The position numbers and the translations under genes are program-made. The notes under the pieces are model-generated. The model searched no databases and was not told where the DNA came from. It worked only from the letters and a program-made list of their open reading frames with translations. From Planctomycetota bacterium (lineage in GTDB: Bacteria; Planctomycetota; Phycisphaerae; UBA1845): a stretch of DNA of 64,000 nucleotides. Positions 45,907 through 52,517 of this stretch are shown here, in pieces. The DNA lies in the NCBI GenBank assembly GCA_016200265.1, contig JACQFE010000055.1, positions 1-64,000 on the forward strand. The letters run 5' to 3'. The stretch's first letter is position 1; every line of letters starts with the position of its first letter.

Positions 45907-47247
45907 ATGCCGAGTCGGCGACGGGTGGTGATCACGGGGCTGGGTGTGGCGACGCCGATCGGGATCGGCATTGATGCGTTCTGGGAGGCGTTGCTTAATG
46001 GCCGCAGCGGGATTCGTCGCATCGCCACGTTCGATCCGTCGGGATTCCCCACGCAAATCGCCGGTGAGTTGCCGCCCTTTAAGCTTGAAGACTGTGTTCC
46101 GAAAAGCTATCGAAAGAGTGCCAAAGTCATGGCACGCGATATTGTGATCGCGGCAGCATGTGCCTACCATGCGGTTCGTGACGCCGGGTTGAACACCAAG
46201 TGCATTATTGATCGCGGAGAGGCGACGGGGCCGCCGAATGTCGATAGCACGCGCTTTGGGGCGAATATCGGCGCCGGGCTCATCTGCGCCGATCTCAATG
46301 AGCTTGCCTCGGCGCTGAGCACCGCTGCGGACGATAACGGAGCGTTCAGTTTGCGCAGGTGGGGCGCGGAAGGCATGACCAACCTGACGCCGCTCTGGCT
46401 GCTGAAGTTTTTGCCGAATATGCTCGCGTGCCACGTGACGATCGTTCACGATGCTCAGGCGCCGTCGAACACAATCACGTGCGGGGAAGCATCGAGCCAC
46501 TTGGCGATCGGAGAGGCCTATCGAACGGTCGCTCGCGGCGATGCGGACGTGTGCATTTGCGGCGGAGCGGAGAGCAAGGCCAATCCGATGGCGCTTGCCC
46601 GGCCACAGCTCTTGAAGCGATTGAACACCAGCGACAATGCCGCGCCGGAGCGGGCGAGCAGGCCGTTCGCCAGGGATCGCGCTGGCATGGTGAGTTCAGA
46701 AGGTGGGGGATTGGTAATTCTGGAAGCGTTGGAGCATGCGCAGGCTCGCGGTGCCAAAATATACGCGGAATTGGTAGGATTTGGGGCGAGTTGCAATACG
46801 AAAAGCTGGTCGTCGCCCGAGCTGACCGGGAACGGGATTGCAACATCACTCAAAAAGGCGATTGCAGATGCGAAGTTATCGTCGGACAAGATCGAGCTTA
46901 TTGCTCCGTTTGGTGTGGGGACAGAAGCCCACGACTCCTCGGAAATGGCCGCCTGGAATAGCGTCTTGGGTTCGCATCTTTCCAACATTCCGGCGATCTG
47001 CACGCGTGGAGCATTGGGAAACAACGGTGCCGGTACAGGCGCGATCGATTTTGCCGCATTGGTTACTTCTCTACATCGGGGCACAATCCCACCGTCGATC
47101 AATACATCCCAACTTGATCCGGCGTGTCGATTTCAATTCGTTCAAAATGATCCGCGCGACTCCCGCGCAAGCGTTGGGATTAGCGTTGCTTGGGCGCTTG
47201 GGGGCGGGCAATGTGCGGCCCTGGTAGTCCGCAAGTTCACCAATTGA
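45907..47247 (+). CDS. ketosynthase-like protein without the catalytic Cys-His-His (chain-length-factor-like)
   Basis: 446 residues with the full KAS II (FabF) fold: VVITGLGVATPIGIGIDAFW, RGDADVCICGGAES, SRPFARDRAGMVSSEGGGLV and ILEALEHAQARGAKIYAELV align without gaps to FabF. The active-site Cys is replaced by Glu194 (APSNTITCGEASSHLAIG against FabF GPSISIATACTSGVHNIG), the first His by Phe335 (IAPFGVGT for VNAHGTST) and the second by Asn372 (GALGNNGAG for SMTGHLLGA). It therefore cannot condense acyl chains. It may act like a chain length factor, as a decarboxylase, or as a scaffold. It is coupled to the dehydratase gene. Confidence 0.88.
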   Translation: MPSRRRVVITGLGVATPIGIGIDAFWEALLNGRSGIRRIATFDPSGFPTQIAGELPPFKLEDCVPKSYRKSAKVMARDIVIAAACAYHAVRDAGLNTKCIIDRGEATGPPNVDSTRFGANIGAGLICADLNELASALSTAADDNGAFSLRRWGAEGMTNLTPLWLLKFLPNMLACHVTIVHDAQAPSNTITCGEASSHLAIGEAYRTVARGDADVCICGGAESKANPMALARPQLLKRLNTSDNAAPERASRPFARDRAGMVSSEGGGLVILEALEHAQARGAKIYAELVGFGASCNTKSWSSPELTGNGIATSLKKAIADAKLSSDKIELIAPFGVGTEAHDSSEMAAWNSVLGSHLSNIPAICTRGALGNNGAGTGAIDFAALVTSLHRGTIPPSINTSQLDPACRFQFVQNDPRDSRASVGISVAWALGGGQCAALVVRKFTN

Positions 47248-47271: not shown

Positions 47272-49263
47272 GTGGCCGTCGTCAACATTCAAAACGTCAC
47301 CAAGCAATTCGGCACGCAGATCGTGCTGCTGGAGGTTTCACTTGAGTTGATTTCAGGCGAGACGGTCGGATTGGTCGGTCCCAATGGAGTCGGCAAGACG
47401 ACGATATTCCGGCTGATTTGCGGAGAATTTGCGCCGGACCTGGGGACGGTGACACGATCACGCGGCACACAAATCGGATATCTCAAGCAAGAGCCGGATG
47501 TCTTGTTGGATCGGACGCTGCACGATGAAGTGGGCAGTGTGTTCGCCGATTTGCTGGCTCTTGAAGGCCGGTTGCACGAGCTTGCTGATGGAATCGCTCA
47601 CGCGCATGATCACCCGTCACTTCCCGAGTTGATGACCCAATATGATCGGGTGAATGCGCAATTCATCGCCGCGGGCGGACACACGTTCGAAGCGAGGCTT
47701 AATGAGATTCTTGGAGGCCTGGGCTTTTCGGAGAGCGATTGGGCAAAACCAATGTCGGTGCTTTCGGGCGGACAAAAATGTCGGGCGGCGCTCGGAAAGC
47801 TTCTGCTGGAAGACCGTGAGCTTCTACTTCTCGACGAGCCTACGAATCATTTGGACATCGATGCGGTACGATGGCTGGAGAAATTTTTGACCGGTCATCG
47901 CGGCGGGGCGGTCATCATTTCGCACGATCGCTTTCTGCTCGATCGGCTTTGCAAGCGGATTCTCGAACTTGAAAATCGCACCGTGACCAGCTTCTCAGGT
48001 AACTACTCGCGCTATGCCGAATCGAAGGCGCTTCGCGACCTCACGCGTCAGCGAGAATTTGAAAAAGACAAGGAGTTCATCGCCAAGGAGCGCGATTACG
48101 TCGCGAGATACGGCGCGGGTCAGCGAGCGCGGCAGGCGAAAGGCCGAAAGACGCGCCTCGAGCGCCGCCTGAACGAAGGTGAGTTTGTGACCGATGCGCC
48201 GACGGCGCGAGGATCGATGAAACTGCAATTCGGCCGTGCGGAATCCCGCAATCTCGGAGGCATGGCGCTTCGAGCCGACGATCTATCCATGCGGTTTACG
48301 GATTCGGAAACGCTCTTTGACAAGCTGAGTTTCCAGGTGCGATCCGGCGAGCGCTTGGCGATCACGGGGCCAAACGGAACGGGCAAGACGACGTTATTGA
48401 AGATCTTGATGGGTGAATTTCCGGCCTCGGCGGGGACGTTTGATTTCACCCGCGGTCTCAGCATCGGCTACTACTCGCAGGATCACCGCACGCTGGATCC
48501 GACGCGAAATTTGGTTGAGGAAGTTCGGGCAGCTCGTTCAGACTTCACGGAACACGATGCAAGAACAATGCTGGCGCGGTTCTTGTTTCGCGGCAACGAT
48601 GTGTTCAAGCCGCTCGGAGCGCTTTCCGGCGGTGAGCAATCGCGCGTGCGGTTGGCGACGTTGATGCTCACGCAGCCGGATATTTTGATCCTTGATGAGC
48701 CGACGAACCATCTGGACATCGCCTCGCGCGAGGTACTTGAGGAATCGCTCAATGAGTTTTCCGGGACGGTGATCGCGGTCAGTCACGACCGCTATTTTCT
48801 CGATCGCATCGCGGATCGACTTCTGGTCATGCGCCGCGAAGGATGTCGGTTGTTTGCCGGAAACTACTCCTTTTATCTTGAGCAGATCGAGCAGGAGGAG
48901 GCCGCCAAGAAGGAATACGCAAAATCGAAAATTCAATCCAAAAAGGTCCGAACTCGGAGCGTAAGCGACGGGCAGAGCGGCGCGACCTCGCAAAAGACTT
49001 CAATTGGAAAACGTGGCGACAAGCATGGAGCGCCGTTCCCCCGCGCGAAATCGAATCGTTTCGATCATCTTTCCATCGATCAGCTCGAAGAAATGGTCAT
49101 GACCAAAGAAGTCGAATTGGCCCGGCTCCAGGAAAAATTCGGCGATCCGGAAATCTACAAGAACGCGGAATCACTGGCCGAGCTGCAGGAGGAATTCGAC
49201 GCAGTTCAGAGCGAGTTAACCGAACTCGATGCGGCGTGGCAGGAAAGGGTGGAATCAGGGTGA
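47272..49263 (+). CDS. ABC-F ATPase with repeat-containing linker
   Basis: 663 residues. Two ABC domains: GLVGPNGVGKTTIFRLICGE / LSGGQKCRAALGKLLL / LLLLDEPTNHLDIDAVRWLE and ITGPNGTGKTTLLKILMGE / LSGGEQSRVRLATLML / ILILDEPTNHLDIASREVL. There are no membrane helices, so it is a ribosome-acting ABC-F protein of the Uup/YdiF type, not a transporter. The interdomain linker lies at about residues 230-320. The C-terminal coiled coil (DQLEEMVMTKEVELARLQEK) is joined by a stretch with RTRSVSDGQSGATSQKTS, partly encoded by a dispersed repeat (48955-48972). Start is GTG at 47272 with only a weak ribosome binding site. Confidence 0.93.
   Translation: MAVVNIQNVTKQFGTQIVLLEVSLELISGETVGLVGPNGVGKTTIFRLICGEFAPDLGTVTRSRGTQIGYLKQEPDVLLDRTLHDEVGSVFADLLALEGRLHELADGIAHAHDHPSLPELMTQYDRVNAQFIAAGGHTFEARLNEILGGLGFSESDWAKPMSVLSGGQKCRAALGKLLLEDRELLLLDEPTNHLDIDAVRWLEKFLTGHRGGAVIISHDRFLLDRLCKRILELENRTVTSFSGNYSRYAESKALRDLTRQREFEKDKEFIAKERDYVARYGAGQRARQAKGRKTRLERRLNEGEFVTDAPTARGSMKLQFGRAESRNLGGMALRADDLSMRFTDSETLFDKLSFQVRSGERLAITGPNGTGKTTLLKILMGEFPASAGTFDFTRGLSIGYYSQDHRTLDPTRNLVEEVRAARSDFTEHDARTMLARFLFRGNDVFKPLGALSGGEQSRVRLATLMLTQPDILILDEPTNHLDIASREVLEESLNEFSGTVIAVSHDRYFLDRIADRLLVMRREGCRLFAGNYSFYLEQIEQEEAAKKEYAKSKIQSKKVRTRSVSDGQSGATSQKTSIGKRGDKHGAPFPRAKSNRFDHLSIDQLEEMVMTKEVELARLQEKFGDPEIYKNAESLAELQEEFDAVQSELTELDAAWQERVESG
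48955..48972. repeat. CGGAGCGTAAGCGACGGG repeat in the ABC-F linker
   Basis: 17 of 18 bases match, in reverse complement, the unit at 37372-37389 in the DUF115 gene. It is translated as part of RTRSVSDGQSG between the second ABC domain and the C-terminal coiled coil. Confidence 0.65.
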
Positions 49264-49340: not shown

Positions 49341-49372
49341 TTGACAGAAAGGGTTGGGGGGGGGGGTAATAT
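49341..49372 (+). promoter_or_regulatory. promoter with a G11 tract in the spacer (possibly phase-variable)
   Basis: A perfect -35 TTGACA (49341-49346) and a -10 TAATAT (49367-49372, 5 of 6) are separated by 20 bases, of which the last 11 (49356-49366) are G. The optimal spacer is 17. Gain or loss of G by slippage would move the boxes in or out of register, as at the porA and opc promoters of Neisseria. It precedes the Cys-rich exported peptide gene with a 73-base leader. Confidence 0.7.
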
Positions 49373-49445
49373 GTGGCGATTGGCGCTTAGGACTGGTGCG
49401 GACATCGGGCCTTAGCTCACTAGTTGCGAATAAGGAGAATATCAA

Positions 49446-49667
49446 ATGACGATGAGAATTCAAAGAGCCTTGGGTATGTTGGTGGGACTTACGCTCGCCG
49501 CCTCATCGGTTCACGCCGCATGCACGAGCGGGTGCGGGAGCCCTTCGGGGAGTGATCAATGTGGGCAATGCTGCGCGTCAAAATCCATCGCAGATGGGTG
49601 TTGCGGGGCTGCTTTCACGGGCTCAAAGCAGCAAAAGTGCCTTGCTTATAATGAGCTGGCTTTCTAG
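49446..49667 (+). CDS. small Cys-rich exported peptide
   Basis: 73 residues. The ATG has AAGGAGAATATCAA upstream. A signal peptide (ALGMLVGLTLAASSVHA) is followed by a mature part of about 49 residues with eight Cys, including CTSGCGS, CGQCCAS and DGCCGAAF, and no long hydrophobic segment. The even number suggests disulphides or metal binding. No family is recognised. It is the first gene behind the G11 promoter; the next gene, 105 bases on, encodes a thioredoxin-fold protein. Confidence 0.75.
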   Translation: MTMRIQRALGMLVGLTLAASSVHAACTSGCGSPSGSDQCGQCCASKSIADGCCGAAFTGSKQQKCLAYNELAF

Positions 49668-49772: not shown

Positions 49773-50897
49773 ATGTTGATAGCAATTACAATTCTCGCAA
49801 TAACGGTAGGAGGAGCGGAGCGCGAAGCTAAGCAAGTAGAGCTTGAAGCGGAGACTTGGATCAATGCACCTGCCATCGTTTTTCCCGACAACCGCTCATA
49901 CGTTGTTCTGTTCTTTTCGACCGAGTCGGACAAAGAGAAGCGAGAAGAGACCGAGAAACTGATTGAGAAGCTGCAAAAAGTCGCAAAGCGGAAGGACTAT
50001 CTCGTCATTCTTTTGTCACCGAACAAAGAGGCCGCGGTTCGACGATTCATAAAGAAGGAAAAAATTGAGTTCCCGGTCGGTAGTGGAACCAAGTCCAACA
50101 AACAGTTTAAGATCGAAGATTACCCGAAGTTAATTATCCTTGAGCGTACCGCAGACGGGAAATTGGCACCGTGGAACGACATGCCCGTTAACTACTTGGA
50201 TTCTCTAGTTCCAGGAGAGACCTCGAGCGGACTTGATTCGGGGGCGTTCGACGAGGGTTCGCCGACGGAGACTTTGACTCGATACGCGCGGGAGGATCCG
50301 AGCGACGATTCGCGGGAGAAGGCGCTTGAAATCCTTCGCGGACGAATGTCCATTGAGGCGTTTCTGAAGCTTTGCGGCTCCCTTCTCGCGGAAGCTAATC
50401 CGGCCACGCAAACCTATGGAAAGATCGAGTACCAGCGGCAACTTGCCGATCCGAGCGTCACAGAAAAGCAACCCCGGTATTCGCCCTGCGCGCTGGCCTC
50501 AAAGGCGCGCCGGGCGAATCCATCCGATGTTTGTTGGGCGCGGGTGAATGAATACGAACAGGCGGTCAGCGGAAAGCCGTTGAACCAGCTTTGGACAGAC
50601 TACCATGCTTCGGCGACAGATGAACCATCAGATTTGCTGATTCGAATGTCCATCGTGGACGACCTTGCCAATCGCACAGACAAGGCCGGCGCGCGATCGC
50701 TGCTGATGCAGATGTTCCCACTCGAAACCGACTTCGCCGTGCGGCTACATGTCGTCGGCTCCATGATGGACGCGTGTGGGCCGGGCGATACGGAAGCCGC
50801 GGACTTCCTCGAAGCACAACTGGCCCACGAAACGAATATCCGTAGCGTCCGTCCTCTCATGTTGGCGACGATCCATTACCTCCACACTGGCGAGTAA
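49773..50897 (+). CDS. exported thioredoxin-fold-like protein without CxxC
   Basis: 374 residues. A short N-terminal hydrophobic segment (LIAITILAITVGGA) suggests export or anchoring. Residues about 30-125 (YVVLFFSTESDKEKREETEK, LVILLSPNKEAAVRRFIKKE, FKIEDYPKLIILE with the cis-Pro type YPK) follow the thioredoxin/TlpA pattern, but the active-site CxxC is replaced. The C-terminal half is helical (EALEILRGRMSIEAFLKLCG, later DFLEAQLAHETNIRSVRP) and HEAT-like. It may be co-transcribed with the Cys-rich peptide and handle it, which is an inference. No ribosome binding site beyond GGAGAG is seen. Confidence 0.6.
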   Translation: MLIAITILAITVGGAEREAKQVELEAETWINAPAIVFPDNRSYVVLFFSTESDKEKREETEKLIEKLQKVAKRKDYLVILLSPNKEAAVRRFIKKEKIEFPVGSGTKSNKQFKIEDYPKLIILERTADGKLAPWNDMPVNYLDSLVPGETSSGLDSGAFDEGSPTETLTRYAREDPSDDSREKALEILRGRMSIEAFLKLCGSLLAEANPATQTYGKIEYQRQLADPSVTEKQPRYSPCALASKARRANPSDVCWARVNEYEQAVSGKPLNQLWTDYHASATDEPSDLLIRMSIVDDLANRTDKAGARSLLMQMFPLETDFAVRLHVVGSMMDACGPGDTEAADFLEAQLAHETNIRSVRPLMLATIHYLHTGE

Positions 50898-51503: not shown

Positions 51504-51572
51504 AGGCGTGCGGATTTACCGGAGCATCCTCCGGCTGACCGATTTTAATTGCACGCTACCATATTGCACGTG

Positions 51573-52517
51573 ATGACACTTGAACAAACTCATGTCCGCT
51601 TCGGTGCGGAATGCAAGCCTGTCGAAGTGGTCCAGCTTCAATCCGATGGTTGGATCGGTCGCACTGTTGTGCGCGTCACGGAACAATCGTCCGGCATCAT
51701 GGGGGTCTCCCGATGTCCCAGCGAGGGCGATTGGCGCCGGTGGATCAAAAGTTCGCTAACCGAGAACGCTGAATCCGCGAGGCGAGAGTATCTCAAATAT
51801 TCGCCGTCGGTGGAGATTTTTCGAGATCGAATTTCAATCGGGGATTCGGACGGCGGCATCGAAGTCGTGTGCAAGAAAACCAAAGGAGTGGGATTTCTTG
51901 GGCGGCTTCGAGCATCGCGAGCTGAGCGGAATTTTCGCCGCGGCTGGATGCTGCTTGATGCTGGGATTCAAACCGCCGTTCCTTTGGCCGCCATCGAGCG
52001 CCGCGAACGAGTGAGAGAGTCATGCCTCGTCACTCGATTTGTTCCGGACCTTATGGACCTTGATCGAATTGCGATGCTCGACCTTCCTCGAATATCCGGA
52101 AGCCGGGCCGTAGCGTTGAAAATGACGCTTGTTGAACAAGTCGCCGGGCTATTCGCCAGGCTTCGCGCTAGGCGCTTGCATCATCGTGACATGAAGGCCT
52201 CAAATATCATGGTCGCCAATGCGAATACACCAGCGACTGCGAGTCTTTTCATTCTTGATCTTGACGGCCTAGGCGCGGCGTCGAGATGGAGGCGCGGGTT
52301 GCGCTGGCAGCCGTTGATGCGGTTGGCCGCAAGCCTCATCGGATATCGCGGCGTTACGCGTGCAGATTTCGCGCGATGCCTGCGAAGATACTTGGTTCTC
52401 ACGGATGGAATCGATCGCGAATGGCGGAACCACTATCGCCGGTTGAGCGCGGAGGCCCGATCTTATTCTGCCGCGTCCGGACAGCGCAAGCGAGGTAAAC
52501 TGGACGGAATCGGATGA
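51573..52517 (+). CDS. lipopolysaccharide (Kdo/WaaP-type) kinase-like protein
   Basis: 314 residues from the ATG at 51573; a TTG at 51549 is the alternative. It has a kinase-like fold: a nucleotide-loop region (EVVCKKTKGVGFLGRLRASR), catalytic loop LHHRDMKASNIMVANANTP (HRD, Asn) and metal motif LFILDLDGLGAAS (DLD for DFG). The SRAERNFRRGWMLLDAGIQT segment matches WaaP/RfaP/KdkA lipid A-core kinases. It probably phosphorylates a core sugar on the inner face of the inner membrane. A glycosyltransferase and an MsbA-like exporter follow on the same strand. Confidence 0.82.
   Translation: MTLEQTHVRFGAECKPVEVVQLQSDGWIGRTVVRVTEQSSGIMGVSRCPSEGDWRRWIKSSLTENAESARREYLKYSPSVEIFRDRISIGDSDGGIEVVCKKTKGVGFLGRLRASRAERNFRRGWMLLDAGIQTAVPLAAIERRERVRESCLVTRFVPDLMDLDRIAMLDLPRISGSRAVALKMTLVEQVAGLFARLRARRLHHRDMKASNIMVANANTPATASLFILDLDGLGAASRWRRGLRWQPLMRLAASLIGYRGVTRADFARCLRRYLVLTDGIDREWRNHYRRLSAEARSYSAASGQRKRGKLDGIG

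Follow-up and report, generated by a model that had tools for sequence, protein, structure and literature searches.

A poly-G spacer promoter before an exported-like, Cys-rich peptide of a planctomycete, and its candidate role in promoter phase variation

Results and discussion

The locus and its poly-G promoter

The window, by which we mean the whole analysed stretch of 64,000 nucleotides, is located on contig C68 of an 80-contig MAG of the Planctomycetota, an assignment that agrees with its nearest named relatives, which are Phycisphaerae MAGs. It contains a pair of exported-like genes preceded by a promoter-like site (Table 1), with genes for a beta-ketoacyl synthase (45907-47247) and an ABC-F type ATPase (47272-49263) on one side, and a gene for a Kdo/WaaP-family lipopolysaccharide kinase-like protein (51549-52517) on the other.

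Table 1. Features of the poly-G promoter and the gene pair that follows it
Feature	Position	Strand	Basis
-35 hexamer TTGACA	49341..49346	+	Sequence; TTGAC conserved upstream of several orthologous pairs
G11 tract within the spacer, immediately before the -10	49356..49366	+	Sequence; orthologous promoters
-10 hexamer TAATAT, 20-nt spacer	49367..49372	+	Sequence; TANNNT in orthologues
Shine-Dalgarno sequence AAGGAG of the peptide gene	49432..49437	+	Sequence
73-aa Cys-rich peptide, exported-like (gene 1)	49446..49667	+	ORF with ATG; signal-peptide-like N-terminus
374-aa exported-like Trx-fold and helical-repeat (HEAT-like) protein without CXXC (gene 2)	49773..50897	+	Pfam, orthologues, AlphaFold, Foldseek

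The first-pass annotation had described a TTGACA and a TAATAT separated by 20 bases that include 11 consecutive G, and the sequence confirms these coordinates: the spacer measures exactly 20 nt, comprising nine bases followed by the G tract, and the ATG of the peptide gene lies 73 nt beyond TAATAT. The element at 49341-49372 would be a promoter of the housekeeping-sigma type, with transcription predicted to start near 49379, and it has a homopolymer inside the -35/-10 spacer, as a porA-type switch requires. A promoter scan of the window at spacings of 16-18 nt found no promoter. The tract itself is the longest G run of the 4.56-Mb genome, in whose assembly only two other runs of at least nine G occur, each of exactly nine; all other homopolymers of the window are no longer than seven, and dinucleotide shuffles of the window yielded a mean of 0.44 G9 matches. 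On these grounds the G11 tract is more than a chance run. A G9 run elsewhere in the window's genome (L011, G000, contig C10:9614-9622) is found about 10 bp upstream of the start of an exported protein with a signal-peptide-like N-terminus, with GGGGGAGGGGGGAGATAAT further upstream.

The Cys-rich peptide and its thioredoxin-fold partner

The product of the first gene reads MTMRIQRALGMLVGLTLAASSVHA/ACTSGC..., and contains 8 Cys in 73 residues, all of them in the mature part; its signal-peptide-like N-terminus is probably cleaved after VHA. Relatives were collected with profile searches, as single-sequence searches gave mostly noise above an E-value of 0.001, and were recovered in 8 of the 114 genomes of the order, the window's own genome included. 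An alignment of the mature peptides has seven invariant columns, comprised of six Cys and one Pro. The peptide was modelled as a small bundle of helices (pLDDT 74.6). Neither the sequence, against Pfam and NCBIfam, nor the model, against the PDB, matched any family or fold, including those of known Cys-rich peptides, and a toxin or bacteriocin label was accordingly dropped. The small, Cys-rich character proposed by the first-pass annotation is borne out, with export predicted from the N-terminus, but the peptide gene does not stand alone: it opens a conserved gene pair, recovered in G011 (three copies), G092, G096, G059, G048, G098, G076, G024 and G060. That it acts as a surface or competitive factor is conjectural.

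Two of the peptide orthologues have features of their own. In G096 (L021, G096:C16, reverse strand, approximately 1501-1518 of the reverse complement) an in-frame TGA occurs four codons past the ATG (ATGACAATGAAATGAAGC), with the frame open beyond it, which might reflect an assembly error, a pseudogene or a restart. In G048 (L023, G048:C3, 1475-1482) there is no promoter tract, and a C8 run lies within the region coding for the signal peptide, where it could possibly function as a frame-shift switch.

The partner encoded by the second gene has the thioredoxin fold of the TlpA/ResA family, as seen from a match to the Pfam family Thioredoxin_8 above the cut-off and from Foldseek matches of its AlphaFold model (pLDDT 83.0) to TlpA/ResA/StoA-type domains (3fkf, E-value 1.5e-4); the Pfam match to HEAT_2 is weak. 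It resembles these proteins in the fold of its N-terminal domain and in its predicted export, and differs from them in the lack of the CXXC motif, the fusion to a helical-repeat domain and, in the close orthologues examined, the location beside a Cys-rich peptide. The CXXC is absent from the active-site position in all 10 aligned orthologues, making a catalytic redox role unlikely, and the reading of the partner as a redox enzyme was therefore dropped. It might plausibly bind the Cys-rich peptide. In this order, CXXC-less proteins that join a thioredoxin fold to helical repeats make up a small family, encoded in pairs with Cys-rich peptides. No promoter-like or terminator-like site was found in the gap between the two genes.

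Divergence of the promoters of orthologous pairs

Comparison of the promoters upstream of the orthologous pairs showed that the hexamers are kept while the length of the tract varies, in each case between species or tandem copies. Against the TTGACA-20(G11)-TAATAT of the window, G096 has TTGACA-14(G8)-TAGATT and G098 has TTGACA-16(G5CG2)-TAGCTT, whereas the tract is lacking in G059 (TTGACA-16-TATGTT) and in two of the three copies of G011 (TTGACT-17-TAGATT and TTGACT-18-TAGACT). G024 possesses two tandem units, with G8 and G11 after TTGAC in their respective promoters. All tract lengths are assembly consensus values, with one genome per species. This direct comparative evidence points to the site being a promoter in which the tract is gained or lost and drifts in length; the tract would not be essential, given that the G011 copies and several other orthologues do without it. 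In G549, two contigs that seem to derive from one locus break off at the tract, with G10 and G11 respectively. A T4/T5 discrepancy close by might be due to sequencing error, and as an instance of length variation these contigs are only suggestive.

Poly-G promoters across the order and the phylum

The genome-wide statistics were obtained from pattern searches. In the order, TTGAC-N3..13-G7-N2..4-TANNNT gave 52 matches, distributed over 39 of the 114 genomes, as against 5 for the reversed pattern; the equivalent with a C tract gave 20, mostly short runs that do not abut the -10. Each genome was found to have 0-3 poly-G promoters, and in 22 of 30 sites of the order the tract abuts the -10 exactly. 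In a sample of 392 genomes from across the phylum, runs of at least nine G abutting TANNNT and accompanied by TTGAC numbered 30, in 22 genomes, versus 2 in the control, indicating that the feature also occurs outside the order, though more sparsely. So as not to build the -35 into the search, G10-TANNNT was also searched alone: it occurs 32 times in the order, compared with 11 for the reversed pattern and 2 for C10-TANNNT. A TTGAC is located at 15-22 nt from 15 of these 32 sites, and at none of the other spacings (6-14 and 23-39 nt). Roughly half of the G10 sites lack a recognisable -35, and G runs are thus not spacing switches in every case.

The spacers of 59 promoters with at least nine G range from 14 to 22 nt (17.7 +/- 2.0), with a mode of 19. 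Across them, the number of G and the length of the remaining spacer vary inversely (rho -0.50, p 6e-5). None of the 1974 permutations sampled within the limits of the search had a spacer variance as low as the observed one; as some of the sites are paralogues, the p-values are approximate. On these patterns, chance appears a poor explanation and a constraint on the -35/-10 distance a good one, and the enrichment was too strong to retain the G11 promoter as an isolated accident.

Products of the poly-G promoters

As the product of each site we took the first downstream ORF with a Shine-Dalgarno sequence, and export was called by a crude rule of our own that looks for a basic residue followed by a hydrophobic stretch of 10 residues. 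By this rule, 38 of 47 poly-G sites precede an exported-like gene, compared to 8 of 19 canonical TTGACA-17-TANNATG promoters of the same order (p 0.003). Random positions gave 19%, and among the 53 genes of the window the rule called 11. A Cys content of at least 6% is seen in 13 of the 47 products, but in none of the 19 canonical ones and none of the 53 window genes. Ten Cys-rich products of poly-G sites were compared with Pfam and matched no family. The product at L062 resembles the window peptide in a profile comparison (E-value 3.4e-5). Other products recur with tracts of their own: L107 (G11) and L110 (G10) precede homologous exported-like proteins with 35% identity, at spacers of 20 and 16 nt, while L138 and L176, both G10, precede homologues with 47% identity in genomes from different groups of the phylum, and L141 (G11) precedes a further homologous exported-protein gene of this set. 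Thus, the poly-G promoters appear to drive mainly exported-like and often Cys-rich products.

A proposed mechanism and its alternatives

Slipped-strand phase variation of promoter spacing, of the porA type and dispersed over many genes for exported proteins, is in our judgement the best explanation of these observations, and probably the right one. The sequence comparison behind it covers the architecture of the promoter, its recurrence, the constraints on strand and distance, the divergence of the tract between orthologues and the enrichment in exported-like and Cys-rich products; from these we infer slippage within a population, an effect on transcription, supported indirectly by the spacing constraint and by the compensation between tract and remaining spacer, and a benefit through bet-hedging of surface or secreted factors. 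A hypermutable G tract would set the -35/-10 spacing, and slipped-strand mispairing during replication would add or remove G residues in it. The changed number of G would alter the distance between the two hexamers, and with it promoter strength, which in turn would tune or switch transcription of the exported Cys-rich peptide, probably along with that of its thioredoxin-fold partner. The dispersed set of such promoters would then amount to a 'phasome' in the Phycisphaerae. MutS homologues are present and would lower the rate of slippage, so that any switching would proceed at the pace of a cell with working mismatch repair.

The first-pass annotation had considered the 20-base spacer far from optimal and had noted that loss of three G would give 17. 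Among the 59 promoters described above, however, 20 nt falls within the range of the class, close to its mode, so it does not follow that the promoter is off until three G are lost. Poly(dG) stretches tend to adopt an A-like helix with lower twist; in conjunction with the mode of 19, this means that the optimum for a spacer with a G tract may exceed 17 nt, and that the G11/20-nt allele may be moderate rather than 'off'. What survives of the original reading is a promoter, apparently real, whose tract length differs between orthologues and whose geometry recurs across the clade, mostly before exported-like proteins.

The presence of MutS homologues would also suit a tract that is a real spacer kept stable by efficient mismatch repair, and that serves only as an evolutionary tuning knob between species, as would the restriction of the length differences to species or paralogues. 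We consider this unlikely: runs of 9-16 G are of lengths at which slippage can be measured in other bacteria (porA, 9-11G; PMC3639595), and the G10 and G11 contig ends of G549 speak against it too, notwithstanding the sequencing error that their T4/T5 difference could represent. The strand bias, with 32 G10 sites versus 2 C10 sites abutting TANNNT, is a counterpoint to slippage, which alone does not predict it, and hints at an additional, direct contribution of the G tract. Taken further, the bias might mean that the run is a constitutive promoter element, whose poly(dG).poly(dC) beside the -10 would assist RNA polymerase, be it via an A-like helix, an upstream contact, or an R-loop or quadruplex formed by the non-template strand, with the drift in length being incidental. 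The exact abutment on the -10 in most sites of the order agrees with such an element, and the mode of 19 nt would fit a spacer of lower helical twist. However, a fixed element could do without hypermutable runs of 9-16 G, some orthologous promoters lack the tract or have G8 at 14 nt, and enrichment in exported proteins is what is expected of phase-variable genes; we accordingly hold a constitutive element to be quite unlikely. A chance homopolymer or mutational by-product next to a fortuitous TTGACA, with expression starting elsewhere, would accord with the scan at 16-18 nt, which found no promoter, and with a 20-nt spacer being unusual in E. coli. In view of the conservation of the hexamers in orthologues, the enrichment throughout the order relative to controls and the constraint on spacing, it is strongly disfavoured and highly improbable.

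Phase variation and a direct contribution of the tract could be combined in a broader proposal, wherein poly-G spacer promoters found clade-wide in the Phycisphaerae, and more sparsely in other Planctomycetota, randomly and independently switch families of exported Cys-rich proteins, with the orientation-specific tract abutting the -10 acting as both an active element and a spacing ruler. This fuller proposal is tentative, and as a whole we lean slightly against it.

Significance and comparison with known promoters

Host-adapted pathogens provide the best-known cases of promoter-spacer phase variation. The patterns reported here raise the prospect that environmental planctomycetes might turn their surface or secreted proteins on and off at random, in the manner of some pathogens. 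If so, the same bet-hedging is used by free-living bacteria, and the promoters point to dozens of uncharacterised exported proteins that would be worth switching upon contact with phages, grazers or competitors. The type of mechanism is known; what appears new is its dispersed, orientation-biased deployment in the Planctomycetota on uncharacterised exported-like Cys-rich proteins, and the open-access literature that we searched contained no report of such poly-G promoters in Planctomycetes.

The closest parallel is porA of Neisseria meningitidis, which likewise has a poly-G tract, also of 11 G, between the -35 and -10 (PMC3639595, PMC7864442). Its expression declines in the order 11G>10G>9G (PMC3639595), which has been attributed to a spacing other than the optimal 17 nt (PMC7864442). 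Both systems drive an exported or surface protein, by prediction in our case, with spacing as the proposed control variable. The planctomycete version differs in belonging to another phylum, in comprising many unlinked promoters across a clade, in a tract that usually abuts the -10, in having a Cys-rich peptide and thioredoxin-fold pair as product, and in that its switching is a proposal from sequence. In Treponema pallidum, tprL and related tpr genes resemble this set in that several genes per genome for exported or outer-membrane proteins have poly-G promoter tracts, but the tract of tprL overlaps the -10 in part and leaves the -35/-10 spacing unchanged (PMC7864442), whereas the planctomycete tract is a genuine component of the spacer. 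The opc gene of N. meningitidis also has a homopolymer in the promoter of a surface protein gene (PMC7864442); in opc, however, this is a poly-C over the -35 region, while in our searches C tracts directly before the -10 hardly occur (2 versus 32). A rare opposite-strand version is seen in G066, where two similar promoter-like sites in one genome (G066:C1:3313213 and G066:C1:3867353) have C11 and C14 tracts, each placed after TTGACGAA and before ATACATT.
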